Shown here piece after piece: positions 8,618 through 14,028 of a DNA stretch of 64,000 nucleotides. The DNA comes from an uncultured Alphaproteobacteria bacterium. GTDB lineage: Bacteria > Pseudomonadota > Alphaproteobacteria > RF32 > CAG-239. The notes under the pieces were generated by a model. It did no database searches. It saw only the letters and a program-made list of their open reading frames with translations, and was not told where the DNA came from. Location of the stretch: assembly GCA_944392295.1 (NCBI GenBank), contig CALXWE010000001.1, positions 1 to 64,000 on the forward strand, in the 5' to 3' direction. Each line of letters opens with the position of its first letter. Position 1 is the stretch's first letter. A program made the position numbers and the translations under genes.

Positions 8618-9244
8618 CTATGATATGATACCAAACATGATATATAAAATGCAATATTTGCTACCATCACAAACTCGACATAGTTCATCAGTTTCGGTAA
8701 CTGTCATATCTCGTAAACATTTTCTGCCGGAATGGCAATTTTTATCTCCGTAACGAGTACTTGGTTGTGAACCAGTGTTATCGTTTTGTGTGATAATAAT
8801 TCTTACATCGGAAACATCGGCATGGAATTCTTTTGCTACCGAGTATATGTTACGGCACACTTCAAGACTCGAATCATCGTTTTGTAAATAAGATAGTATA
8901 CCGATATACCCCGTAACGTGGTGATATACCAGATATTTGGAGTTAAAAACATCACGCAGTTCCGATTCATTATTTTTTACAAACATATCTTCCGGTATCT
9001 CGTGGAGCTTTTTTAAAAGAGGTATTAATTGGAAAGTATCAGTAGATCCATCATTAAGTCTTAAATCATTTTGATACCGACTGACTGCACTAATTATGGT
9101 ACTTAATTGCTCAGCTTGTTTATTTGATTTATATTTAAACATTGCTTTAGAATAACCGGCAATAGCACCAACGGAAAGAACGCCGATGATAGCAAGAACG
9201 CCGAGCATTTCGACCATAGAGCGACCAATTTCATAAAATTTCAT
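8618..9244 (-). CDS. Type IV pilin-like protein, copy 2
   Basis: 208 residues. Short leader MKFYEIG, then the cleavage site G7|RSMVE with Glu at +5 and a hydrophobic N-terminal helix, as in type IV pilins and pseudopilins. The head contains CRNIYSVAKEFH, then YGDKNC...KCLRD and a C-terminal cysteine pair (CRVC). This cysteine layout recurs in copies 3, 5, 7 and 8. Codons for residues about 10-87 are almost identical in DNA to copy 3, while the head beyond about residue 88 differs sharply. The Shine-Dalgarno is AGGAG. It is the last gene before a terminator and follows copy 3. The product is probably exported and assembled as a pilin or pseudopilin by machinery outside the window. Confidence 0.9.
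   Translation of the reverse strand: MKFYEIGRSMVEMLGVLAIIGVLSVGAIAGYSKAMFKYKSNKQAEQLSTIISAVSRYQNDLRLNDGSTDTFQLIPLLKKLHEIPEDMFVKNNESELRDVFNSKYLVYHHVTGYIGILSYLQNDDSSLEVCRNIYSVAKEFHADVSDVRIIITQNDNTGSQPSTRYGDKNCHSGRKCLRDMTVTETDELCRVCDGSKYCILYIMFGIIS
8983..9217. repeat. 235-bp near-identical segment shared with 9745-9979
   Basis: The 5' parts of pilin copies 2 and 3 match at 234 of 235 positions; the single difference is T at 9037 against A at 9799. Identity stops abruptly at both ends, at the prepilin cleavage region and inside the head. This suggests recent duplication or gene conversion. Confidence 0.95.
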
Positions 9245-9370: not shown

Positions 9371-10114
9371 TCAGTAAGTGGAATGGAACTTATGGAAGAT
9401 TATCAATAAGGCACACTGTTTGTTCCCTATACACTGTTGGCAGATATTATCTATGTCTGATATTTTCAAATCTCGTAGGCATTGCTGGTTGTTTTGACAC
9501 ATTTTATCACCGTATACCTTGGTTCTTTGATTATTAACATAATCTGTTTGGTAAACAGCAAAATGTATTGTTGATATTTCATTGTGAAATTCCTTGGCAA
9601 CAGTATACATATTTCTGCATATATTAACAGAATAAGCATCTGTGGGTATAGAGGAGGAAATACCTATATATCCTGTGTTGTGATGATATACAGAATATAT
9701 CACTTTAAACACGTCCTGTATAAGTTTGTCATTGTTCGGATAGTACATATCTTCCGGTATCTCGTGGAGCTTTTTTAAAAGAGGTATTAATTGGAAAGAA
9801 TCAGTAGATCCATCATTAAGTCTTAAATCATTTTGATACCGACTGACTGCACTAATTATGGTACTTAATTGCTCAGCTTGTTTATTTGATTTATATTTAA
9901 ACATTGCTTTAGAATAACCGGCAATAGCACCAACGGAAAGAACGCCGATGATAGCAAGAACGCCGAGCATTTCGACCATGCTTCTGCCGGAAAAAGTTGC
10001 ATCTACTGGCAATTTTGCTCCTCGTGTACCAGTTGTTATACATGTCGTCGCAAAATAGCTGCGCATCTGTACCATTTTACGAAAGATAGAACGTCCAAAT
10101 TGATAAAATTTCAT
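9371..10114 (-). CDS. Type IV pilin-like protein, copy 3, with palindromic insert
   Basis: 247 residues. The family start MKFYQFGRS is followed not by MVEML but by 34 inserted residues (IFRKMVQMRSY...TFSGRS). The true signal G43|RSMVEML comes after them. The insert is the translated palindromic element at 9987-10086 and keeps the frame open. Residues after the signal equal copy 2 up to HEIPEDM, then the head diverges. The head keeps CRNMYTVAKEFH, YGDKMC...QCLRD and CQQC. The gene lies behind sufD and before copy 2. A 43-residue leader is long for a type IV prepilin; whether it is processed cannot be told from sequence. Confidence 0.88.
   Translation of the reverse strand: MKFYQFGRSIFRKMVQMRSYFATTCITTGTRGAKLPVDATFSGRSMVEMLGVLAIIGVLSVGAIAGYSKAMFKYKSNKQAEQLSTIISAVSRYQNDLRLNDGSTDSFQLIPLLKKLHEIPEDMYYPNNDKLIQDVFKVIYSVYHHNTGYIGISSSIPTDAYSVNICRNMYTVAKEFHNEISTIHFAVYQTDYVNNQRTKVYGDKMCQNNQQCLRDLKISDIDNICQQCIGNKQCALLIIFHKFHSTY
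9745..9979. repeat. 235-bp near-identical segment shared with 8983-9217
   Basis: Partner of the segment in pilin copy 2, with one mismatch in 235 bases and the same orientation. Confidence 0.95.
9987..10086. repeat. Palindromic insertion element, copy B, in frame inside pilin copy 3
   Basis: Core 10009-10059: GCAATTTTGC (10009-10018) faces GCAAAATAGC (10050-10059) with one mismatch, and CGTGTA faces TACATG with one mismatch. It has the same flanks, orientation and position in the gene (directly after codon 9) as copy A at 389-487. It is translated as part of the pilin leader. Loss of perfect pairing compared with copy A suggests an older or decaying copy. Confidence 0.75.
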
Positions 10115-10220: not shown

Positions 10221-11543
10221 CTACAAAGATTTAATCCATTCAGCAACGGCAGTACATGAAATTTTATTTATCACCTCATCGGTAAAGGCTTTTATAAGTA
10301 AGGTCTTTGCCTCATCTTCGCCGATACCTCGCGATTGTAAATAAAACAGCTGTTCTTTATCCAATTCGCCGCTGGCCGCTCCGTGCGAACATTTTACGTC
10401 ATCGGCAAAAATCTCTAACTCCGGCTTTACATCAACCTCGGCTTCATCGCTTAACAATAAAGCTTTATGTAATTGGTAGCCTTCGGTTTTAACCGCATCG
10501 GGCGCAATATGAATTTTTCCTTGAAAAACACCTTTGGCTTTTCCGCCGATAATACCTTTTACCAACTGATGCGAAACCGTTTCTTTGGATATATGCTTAA
10601 TATCGGTAGTGGTATCAAGCGTTGCCCAACCGTTCATTTTGTAAACGGCATTAACTTCCGCTTCGGCATGGGGTTCTTTTAAAACCACCTGCGTTTCTTG
10701 ACGAGATAAATCGGCACCGAGTTGCAAACAAAAACTTTCATAATGACCGCCTTGTTTTACTTGCACGGAGTTTAAGGCAATATGAAAAGCCTTAAAAGCT
10801 TCTTGCTGTACTTTGTAATGGCGGATATAAGCATCGCGGCCGATAAAAAACTCATTTACAATATTGTTAAAGTAAACGGATTTTTCGGCACCCGAACAGT
10901 AATAATGCTCCAAAATAGTTGCTCTTGCACCGCTTTCGGCAACAATTACGTTGTAAACATTACTTAACCTTTTAATATCTCCGTGACTGTGAAAATTTAA
11001 TAAAATCGGTTTGTCATCATTAAAATTTTTATCAACAGCTATCATTACCCCTTGCTCTAAGTAGGCACTGTTAAGAGCGGCAAAAGGAAAATTGTTGATA
11101 TCAAAACTCTTATTTAAATATTTAAAAACATCACCGTTTTCAAATGCATCGGTAAGGCTGACAATGCTTAAACCTTGGGTTGTATGGAAATGGTCGGCTT
11201 TTAGCTTACCGTTGCAAAAATTAACCTCATAAACCTCAAATGGCAGGCAGTTTTCATGACAACAACAATGTTCATGACTGCCGGTTTCATGTTCATCGTG
11301 ACAATGACATTTTTCATCATGACAATGGAAAGAATTCTTGTCATCACTTTCAACAACAAATTCTTCATCTGATAAATTGCGAAGTTTGGTATATTTCCAA
11401 GCCTCGGTTTTTGGGGTAGGTAACCCTTGAGATAAAAATGCCTGCCGACCTTTTTCGCGTAAAATTGCCAGCTTGGGGCAAAATGTTGTATTAGTATCAT
11501 CTTGTTGCCAATCGGCATAATTTTTGAGCACGATTTTACTCAT
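10221..11543 (-). CDS. sufD: Fe-S cluster assembly protein SufD with His/Cys-rich insert
   Basis: Scaffold subunit of the SufBCD complex that builds Fe-S clusters. 440 residues; family signs include EAWKYTKLRNL near residue 47, the beta-helix core (GKAKGVFQGKIHIAPDAVKT), CSHGAASGELDKEQLFYLQSRG and the C-terminal EVINKI. Residues 72-99 form an insert with eight His and seven Cys among 28 residues (HCHDEKCHCHDEH... HCCCHENC). This lies in the N-terminal helical part, and I do not know it from other SufD proteins. It would be able to bind several metal ions; a role in iron delivery or metal storage is inference. The gene begins one base after the sufC stop codon and is the last suf gene. Confidence 0.95.
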   Translation of the reverse strand: MSKIVLKNYADWQQDDTNTTFCPKLAILREKGRQAFLSQGLPTPKTEAWKYTKLRNLSDEEFVVESDDKNSFHCHDEKCHCHDEHETGSHEHCCCHENCLPFEVYEVNFCNGKLKADHFHTTQGLSIVSLTDAFENGDVFKYLNKSFDINNFPFAALNSAYLEQGVMIAVDKNFNDDKPILLNFHSHGDIKRLSNVYNVIVAESGARATILEHYYCSGAEKSVYFNNIVNEFFIGRDAYIRHYKVQQEAFKAFHIALNSVQVKQGGHYESFCLQLGADLSRQETQVVLKEPHAEAEVNAVYKMNGWATLDTTTDIKHISKETVSHQLVKGIIGGKAKGVFQGKIHIAPDAVKTEGYQLHKALLLSDEAEVDVKPELEIFADDVKCSHGAASGELDKEQLFYLQSRGIGEDEAKTLLIKAFTDEVINKISCTAVAEWIKSL

Positions 11544-11544
11544 T

Positions 11545-12309
11545 TTATGCTATATCCTTTACAAATTCGGCATAGCCGGTATTTTCCAATTCTTCAGCTA
11601 AATCTTTAGATCCGGATTTAACAATATGACCATTGGCAAATACATGTACAACATCGGGAACAATATATTCCAAAAGGCGTTTATAGTGAGTAATAACCAG
11701 CATGGCACGTTTACCGTCACGCAAACTGTTTACACCTTGAGCCACCACTTTCATGGCATCAATATCTAAGCCGGAGTCGGCCTCATCCAAAATAGCCATA
11801 TTGGGTTTTAAAATGGCCATTTGCAAAGTTTCCATTCTCTTCTTTTCACCGCCTGAAAAGCCTACATTAACAGGTCTTTTCAACATTTCATTATCAATGC
11901 CGAGCTTTTTACCTTCTTCTCGCAGCATTTTTATAAATTCCATGGTGTCAAGTTCAGGCTCGCCGCGGTGTTTACGAATATCATTTACGGCATATTTCAA
12001 AAATGAAGTGGTCGGAACTCCCGGAATTTCTACCGGATATTGCATAATTAAGAACAAGCCTTCACGGGCTCTTTCTTCTACGCTCATTTTGAGCAAATCT
12101 TTACCATAAAGCTTTACTGATCCTCCGGTTACTTCATAGCCCTCTTTACCGCACAAAACGTAAGATAGGGTAGATTTACCGGCACCGTTAGGTCCCATAA
12201 TGGCATGAACTTCGCCTTCGTAAATCGTTAGATTAAGGTTCTTGATGATTTCTTTATCATGCACGCGGGCACATAAATTTTCAATTTCCAAAACTGGCGT
12301 TCTATTCAT
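11545..12309 (-). CDS. sufC: Fe-S cluster assembly ATPase SufC
   Basis: ABC-type ATPase that drives the SufBCD scaffold. Walker A GPNGAGKST, signature SGGEKKRMETLQMAI, Walker B ILDEADSGLDIDAMK and the switch His in VITHYKRLLEYI are all present, and the length is that of the family. I place the start at ATG 12309 (MNRTPVLEI), ten bases behind GGGAG. An in-frame ATG at 12318 lies too close to that site but cannot be excluded. The start overlaps the end of the MazG-like gene by eight bases, showing tight coupling within the operon. Confidence 0.95.
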   Translation of the reverse strand: MNRTPVLEIENLCARVHDKEIIKNLNLTIYEGEVHAIMGPNGAGKSTLSYVLCGKEGYEVTGGSVKLYGKDLLKMSVEERAREGLFLIMQYPVEIPGVPTTSFLKYAVNDIRKHRGEPELDTMEFIKMLREEGKKLGIDNEMLKRPVNVGFSGGEKKRMETLQMAILKPNMAILDEADSGLDIDAMKVVAQGVNSLRDGKRAMLVITHYKRLLEYIVPDVVHVFANGHIVKSGSKDLAEELENTGYAEFVKDIA

Positions 12310-12583
12310 GTTTTCCATTCTCCCAATCGTCTAAACGCTTATTAATTTTAAGTAACTTTTGAGCCTTATAATCTTCAACTTCTTTGCGAATATTATAACA
12401 ACATTTAAGTTGTTCAAGCATAATCTCCACATCGGCGGTCTCTTCAATGAGCTCATTGATATTATCTTTATGACGATTGACATTTTTTAAAATTTCTTTG
12501 GTAAGTTCACTCATTTCTTCAATTACCTGAAGCATTTGCGGTTCTTTTCCCCAAGTTTTCAAAGCTCTCTCATAAGTGTTCAT
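12302..12583 (-). CDS. MazG-like all-alpha NTP pyrophosphohydrolase within the suf operon
   Basis: 93 residues, all helical by appearance, with the paired acidic motif of all-alpha NTP pyrophosphatases: EEMSEL (residues about 21-26) and EETADVE (about 47-53), the EExxE...ExxD pattern that binds Mg. Enzymes of this class hydrolyse (d)NTPs to monophosphates, but the substrate here is unknown. The start overlaps the sufB stop (TAATG) and the end overlaps the sufC start, so it is co-transcribed and coupled with both. A gene of this kind between sufB and sufC is unusual. The family call is moderately sure. Confidence 0.75.
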   Translation of the reverse strand: MNTYERALKTWGKEPQMLQVIEEMSELTKEILKNVNRHKDNINELIEETADVEIMLEQLKCCYNIRKEVEDYKAQKLLKINKRLDDWENGKHE

Positions 12584-14028
12584 TATCCGACGCTCCCTTC
12601 TAAGCTGATGTTGATTAATTTTGCTGCCTCAATGGCAAATTCCATCGGCAGATGCTGCATAACCTCTTTGCAAAATCCGTTAACGATTAAGCTTACTGCT
12701 TCTTCTTCGGAAATTCCTCTCTGGCGGCAGTAAAACAACTGTTCGTCGCTTATTTTTGAGGTTGTGGCTTCGTGCTCCAAAATGGCGGTTTTATTTCTGT
12801 TTTCAATATAAGGTACGGTATGCGAGCCGCATTTATTACCGATAAGCAAACTGTCGCACTGCGAATAGTTACGTGCATTTTGAGCCTGAGGTGCAACCTT
12901 TACCAGTCCGCGATAAGTCTGGTTGGAAAATCCGGCAGAAATACCTTTGGAGATAATTTTAGAGGTTGTGTTTTTACCGATATGAATCATTTTGGTACCC
13001 GTATCGGCCTGTTGATAGTTATTGGTTAGAGCAACAGAATAAAACTCGCCGGAGGAGTTATCGCCTTGCAAAATGCAAGACGGATATTTCCAGGTAACGG
13101 CAGAACCGGTTTCAACCTGTGTCCACGATACCTTAGAATTTTCGCCTCGGCATGCGGCTCTTTTGGTAACAAAGTTATATACGCCGCCTTTGCCGTTTTT
13201 ATCTCCCGGGTACCAGTTTTGCACGGTAGAATATTTAACTTCGGCATCTTTTAAGACGACAATTTCCACAATGGCGGCATGGAGCTGATTTTCATCGCGT
13301 TGCGGAGCGGTGCATCCTTCCAGATATGATACATAACTGCCTTCATCGGCAATAATCAAAGTGCGCTCAAATTGCCCGGTATTTTTAGCATTAATCCTAA
13401 AATAGGTAGAAAGTTCCATCGGACATTTAACACCCTTGGGAATATATACAAAAGAACCGTCGGTAAATACTGCCGAATTAAGGCAGGCAAAAAAGTTATC
13501 GGTAAAGGGGACCACCGAGCCTAAATATTTTTGTACCAATTCGGGGTGCTCTTTAACCGCTTCGGATATAGAGCAAAAGATAATACCTTGTTTGGCAAGT
13601 TCGGCTCTGTAAGTTGTGGCTACCGACACGCTGTCAAATACGGCATCAACGGCCACCACGCCGGAAAGCATTTCTTGTTCTTTTAAGGGGATTCCTAGTT
13701 TGTTGTAAGTCTCAATAAGTTTCGGGTCAACTTCGTCTAAGCTCTTTGGGGAAACCTTTTGCTGTGGAGCCGAATAGTAGTGCAAATTTTGATAATCTAT
13801 TTTATCATAAGTTAGTTTTGCCCATGTCGGCTCTTGCATGGTTTTCCAAAATTCGAATGCTTGCAAACGTTTATTTAAAAGCCATTCGGGCTCATTTTTT
13901 TTGGCCGATATCAAACGTATGATATCAGCATTTAAACCAATCGGCGCCGTCTCTGCATTAATATCAGTAACAAAGCCGTATTTATATTTGTCGCCACTCT
14001 CATCAATTATTTGAGTTTTTTTTGCCAT
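12583..14028 (-). CDS. sufB: Fe-S cluster assembly scaffold SufB
   Basis: 481 residues, full length. Typical SufB segments: [95 protein letters not shown] and [20 protein letters not shown]. SufB is the cluster-carrying subunit of SufBC2D in the cytosol. It is the first gene of this suf unit. No iscR or sufS lies upstream; the neighbour is a divergent nlpD-like gene 122 bases away. Cysteine desulfurase must therefore be encoded elsewhere. Confidence 0.97.

Follow-up and report, generated by a model that had tools for sequence, protein, structure and literature searches.

The SufD protein encoded in the window (the whole stretch of 64,000 nucleotides analysed here) carries a Cys/His-rich insert which, to judge from its relatives, is a real variant, conserved in the family and under selection, and represents a new form of SufD. 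The insert very probably binds metal, as its composition, its spacing and the selection acting on it all indicate. We tentatively favour the view that it is a lineage-specific flexible arm of SufD acting as a metallochaperone tethered to the SufBC2D complex, by which Fe(II) would be captured and passed on.

For comparison we used a family of 152 genomes in 16 genera (labelled g1-g16), of which 141 contain SufD and in which the window genome belongs to g1. The stretch compared was the linker following the WKYT motif in 134 family SufDs.

The insert and its host protein

10221-11543, minus strand: sufD, 440 residues, intact, carrying the Cys/His-rich insert; Pfam SufBD_core and SufBD_N
11247-11330, minus strand: the Cys/His-rich insert, spanning residues 72-99 of SufD and containing 8 His and 7 Cys
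10389-10391, minus strand: Cys385, corresponding to Cys358 of E. coli SufD; conserved in 134 of 134 family SufDs
10383-10385, minus strand: His387, corresponding to His360 of E. coli SufD; conserved in 134 of 134 family SufDs

Apart from the insert, the window protein is an ordinary, genuine SufD. Its score against the SufD profile TIGR01981 is 271.4 bits, above the cut-off of 222, and the lower score against PRK10948, a profile of enterobacterial-type SufD (207.9 bits, 489 required), is expected because the protein belongs to a distant lineage. An AlphaFold model built with 51 aligned sequences has a mean pLDDT of 90.8 and contains the N-terminal helices, beta-helix and C-terminal helices of the SufD architecture, and the predicted fold matches E. 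coli SufD chains 2zu0_B/5awf_B (from the SufC-SufD and SufB-SufC-SufD crystals, respectively) with a Z score of 49.5 over 399 residues and an rmsd of 1.9. A wrong gene call could be rejected, since Pfam, TIGR01981 and fold all identify SufD. The likeness to E. coli SufD (1VH4, 2ZU0, 5AWF) and to TIGR01981 thus covers the fold, the active-site His and Cys and the place in the sufBCD cluster, including the counterpart of His360, which has a role in iron acquisition or as Fe-S ligand in E. coli (PMC6006206); the difference is the Cys/His-rich insert, which E. coli SufD lacks.

The insert reads FHCHDEKCHCHDEHETGSHEHCCCHENC, and 15 of its 28 residues are His or Cys, compared to 20 of the 412 residues in the remainder of the protein. 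At the latter rate the probability of finding at least 15 His and Cys among 28 residues is 4e-13, and after correction for every position in the genome's ORFs (253,000 residues) it is still about 1e-7. Scanning 840 kb of the same genome (59%; 869 ORFs, each 50 aa or longer) in 28-residue segments revealed the insert as the most His/Cys-dense of all, followed by a separate Cys-rich array with 10 such residues and then by segments with 7 or fewer. Chance or compositional bias was rejected on the strength of this probability and the genome scan. The earlier note on this DNA had the coordinates and residue counts right (residues 72-99 correspond to 11330..11247), and its remark that the insert is unlike normal SufD agrees with a survey of SufD in other classes and phyla, including other Alphaproteobacteria, in which none of about 110 sequences exceeded 6 His and Cys per 28 residues.

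In the model, the insert follows the N-terminal helices and precedes strand 105-110, ahead of the beta-helix, and residues 73-95 have a pLDDT below 50, being the sole segment of three or more residues to do so; presumably it forms a flexible loop. The E. coli protein lacks about 28 residues here (in phmmer, query residues 33-64 align with 33-64, and query residue 157 with 129). No Pfam family matches the insert, SUFBD_core and SufBD_N being the only matches to the whole protein at E values up to 10, and a search with the insert alone found no solved relative.

Distribution, forms and selection in the family

The relatives are uncultured Alphaproteobacteria, many of them from animal guts and several from rumen, roe deer or reindeer samples. 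A Cys/His-rich linker of 27-84 residues, with a His and Cys fraction of 0.13-0.33, is present in 91 of the 134 SufDs and in 11 of the 16 genera, as compared to a fraction of 0-0.08 in the other 43 SufDs (g10, g12, g13, g15 and g16). The insert was found neither in SufD of one genome from another family of the order nor in eight class-level outgroups. Independent genomes carry it, by which an assembly artefact was rejected. When the linker columns were left out of the SufD tree, unrooted parsimony required two changes of the trait, which it does not resolve into gains and losses. By this distribution, the insert is a lineage-specific feature of SufD occurring across the family, and the open literature searched yielded no description of a SufD with a built-in His-rich or Cys-rich insert. 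Two further cases deserve mention. SufD of genome G016 in g15 (L025) lacks the insert at the usual site and has a Cys-rich stretch, GGGCQCKGECIAEC, further along, which may represent a separate graft at another position. In genome G124, two SufD copies (L056 and L058) are found in one bin, one of them at a contig end, and the pair could be due to duplication or contamination.

The insert occurs in long and compact forms. The long form, found in g2, g6, g7, g8, g9 and g11, has arrays such as CHCHE and CxCGxxCxCG with up to 25 Cys and His, and the compact form of g3, g4 and g14 has mostly C-x3-C or close variants together with extra Cys and His. A further cysteine follows the insert:

11214-11216, minus strand: Cys110, in the next strand beyond the insert (FC[N/D]G); conserved in 48 of 48 SufDs of g1, g3, g4 and g14

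This cysteine is invariant in g3 (24/24), g4 (14/14), g14 (7/7) and g1 (3/3), its position is occupied by His in the allied genus g5, and it is absent from the remaining insert-bearing genera; the window SufD has both an expanded insert and Cys110. In a model of the compact form from g3, the loop has a pLDDT of about 62 with no residue below 50, suggesting that the compact loop is better defined than the long one, which falls short of claiming a site. Across the family SufDs, His is nearly as numerous as Cys in the inserts, and Glu, Gly and Asp make up most of the residues between these potential ligands; such spacers, together with the lack of structure in AlphaFold, would suit a flexible metal arm. 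The g9 linker is a tract whose copy number changes fast within a gene of essential type: four SufDs (L037-L040) that are near-identical elsewhere have linkers of 46-62 residues, differing in the number of CHCHE-type units. The repeat units use mixed codons.

Codon changes were counted in 23 non-overlapping same-genus species pairs. Cys and His codons showed 75 synonymous to 18 non-synonymous changes, compared to 53 to 74 in the spacers (p = 5e-9) and 17 to 36.5 at D, E, N, K and Q residues (p = 1e-8). Restricting the count to gap-free pairs, in order to exclude an alignment bias favouring Cys/His matches, gave 41 to 8 for Cys and His against 23 to 26 for the spacers (p = 2e-4). Judging from these counts, the Cys and His codons are under strong purifying selection though the length of the insert varies quickly, and it is precisely the potential metal-binding residues that selection retains; a decaying or neutral repeat is disfavoured by the synonymous excess. 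The composition, which the earlier note had called metal-binding-type, is thus kept by selection. Among the roles suggested in that note, nothing in the sequence points specifically to iron, to copper or to a sensor. That note had proposed to look for the insert in related genomes, with absence from close relatives and decay in sequence as the outcome that would speak against it; a version is present in both same-genus species and throughout the 11 genera, and its Cys and His codons are selected.

The suf genes and the Fe-S assembly context

11545-12318, minus strand: sufC, scaffold ATPase; TIGR01978 344 bits against a cut-off of 212.8
12302-12583, minus strand: small ORF between sufB and sufC, likewise placed in relatives of several genera
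12583-14028, minus strand: sufB, partner scaffold with no such insert; TIGR01980 650 bits, PRK11814 906 bits

The genes sufC and sufB lie directly upstream of sufD, and the order in relatives is sufB, small ORF, sufC, sufD, sufS, sufT-like and sufE-like, where sufS and sufE were named by eye from sequence and the SufT-type family by search. The small ORF has only weak MazG-like and coiled-coil matches, so that its family is uncertain and MazG-like at best. Just downstream of sufD in the window, where several relatives have sufS, there are two tandem pilin-like proteins (8618-9244 and 9371-10114, minus strand), partly near-identical, with GRSMVEMLGVLAIIGVLSVGAIAGYSKAMFKYK near the start and a weak N_methyl match.

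A-type carriers (IscA/SufA/ErpA, PF01521) were found in none of 128 family genomes nor in the order outgroup G030, compared to 19 of 23 other relatives in the class. The NifU_N domain of IscU/SufU type yielded marginal fragments only in the family, with no convincing IscU or SufU, and Nfu and SufT-type proteins are common. SUF is therefore, by gene content, the main and apparently the only scaffold system in the family. Since this set-up is found with and without the insert alike, it is a background to the insert and not an explanation of it, and the five arm-less genera sharing it imply that the arm is not essential to SUF. A link to the loss of A-type carriers was likewise rejected, as the loss extends over the whole order, with the arm-less genera and the outgroup genome of the order included, and shows no correspondence with the insert. 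The presence of ferritin, judged by eye, has no clear link to the insert either.

Candidate roles of the insert

Cys/His arrays in general favour Zn(II) and Cu(I) over Fe(II), which counts against an iron role. We nevertheless lean to iron capture because the arm sits on SufD, which is genetically tied to iron acquisition, in a system whose iron donor is unknown. In E. coli, SufD has this genetic link to iron acquisition although iron binding has never been demonstrated, and with no iron donor known for SUF, the route of iron to the scaffold is an open question (PMC6006206). Several thiolates and imidazoles of the arm would coordinate a divalent metal of thiophilic or borderline character, Fe(II) would be captured on the arm, and it would then be handed across the scaffold toward the SufB-SufD interface, the site of cluster building. 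Iron delivery as the direction of the arm is put forward with reserve; going by strand order in the model, the insert is at the start of the beta-helix and His387 on its last rung, so that delivery would have to cross the protein. It is on the unlikely side that a naturally evolved iron-donor arm has been fused into SufD, forming an iron-entry module of SUF within the scaffold itself, and such an arm would operate in bacteria in which neither IscU-type scaffolds nor A-type carriers were found. As the way by which iron gets to the SUF scaffold is open, a family with a selected metal-type SufD arm bears on the question, and its natural arm-less relatives offer a direct test system, the same scaffold with the arm present or absent.

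Metallochaperone-type appendages are known from other proteins, such as the His-rich stretch of HypB. The C-terminal domain of H. pylori SlyD contains five His and five Cys, and SlyD has been reported to interact with SufS, IscS and IscU (PMC10653786), so a Cys/His appendage near Fe-S assembly has precedent. In both cases, as in the family SufD, a Cys/His-rich appendage is carried by a protein with another function, but the host protein differs, SlyD has a tail instead of an internal loop, and the metal-chaperone role is a proposed one in the present case; the FKBP-type prolyl isomerase domain of the SlyD family is absent from the window SufD in Pfam. Long versions of the insert resemble bacterial metallothioneins in Cys/His density and CxC-type spacing, yet metallothioneins are stand-alone proteins and the insert is a part of SufD without a Pfam match; indeed, the window SufD matches no metallothionein profile.

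Nearly as likely as iron capture is a guard or buffer, in which the arm, instead of supplying iron, would bind Zn(II) or Cu(I) and keep them away from the thiols at the assembly site of the only Fe-S scaffold that the cell has. Cys and His ligands fit soft metals, Hg binds to the cysteines of the SufB/SufD assembly site in E. coli (PMC6006206), and a second, unrelated Cys-rich array in the genome, the tail of a SIMPL protein, looks like general metal sequestration and suggests a wider habit of adding metal-type modules. On the other hand, a general buffer has no need to sit on SufD, and the few-ligand compact forms with their fixed Cys110 resemble a defined site rather than a sponge. If the arm is such a guard, it would show protection of an essential Fe-S machine from mis-metallation.

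It is improbable that the insert is a structural site for zinc or a similar metal, stapling the linker to the beta-helix, of which the long versions would be elaborations. The C-x3-C motif with Cys110 in g1, g3, g4 and g14 and the better predicted compact loop fit this, but other insert-bearing genera lack Cys110 (g5 having His), up to 25 ligands are more than a single structural site would take, and 43 family SufDs manage without the insert. We give as little credit to a sulphur or cluster relay replacing the A-type carriers, in which the cysteines would either be handed persulphide by SufSE or carry a cluster as it forms: the carriers are missing from all 128 genomes tested, but equally so from the arm-less genera and the order outgroup, and a sulphur relay has no need for nearly as many His as Cys. 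A non-functional low-complexity expansion by repeat slippage, which the varying number of CHCHE-type units in g9 would suggest, is scarcely credible given the synonymous changes at Cys and His codons beside freely changing spacers, the mixed codons of the repeat units and the presence of only one other scanned protein with a comparable expansion.

The SIMPL (DUF541) membrane protein is encoded outside the window (L274:5821-6972, plus strand; contig C1, about 129821-130972). Among its relatives some have a CKCGGK-like stub or no array, and shorter arrays occur in species of g1, g7 and g11; in the protein itself, the N-terminus of about 145 residues ahead of the membrane segment is made of 18-residue Cys-rich repeats of the type CDKDCKCGCQEGKECTCG.
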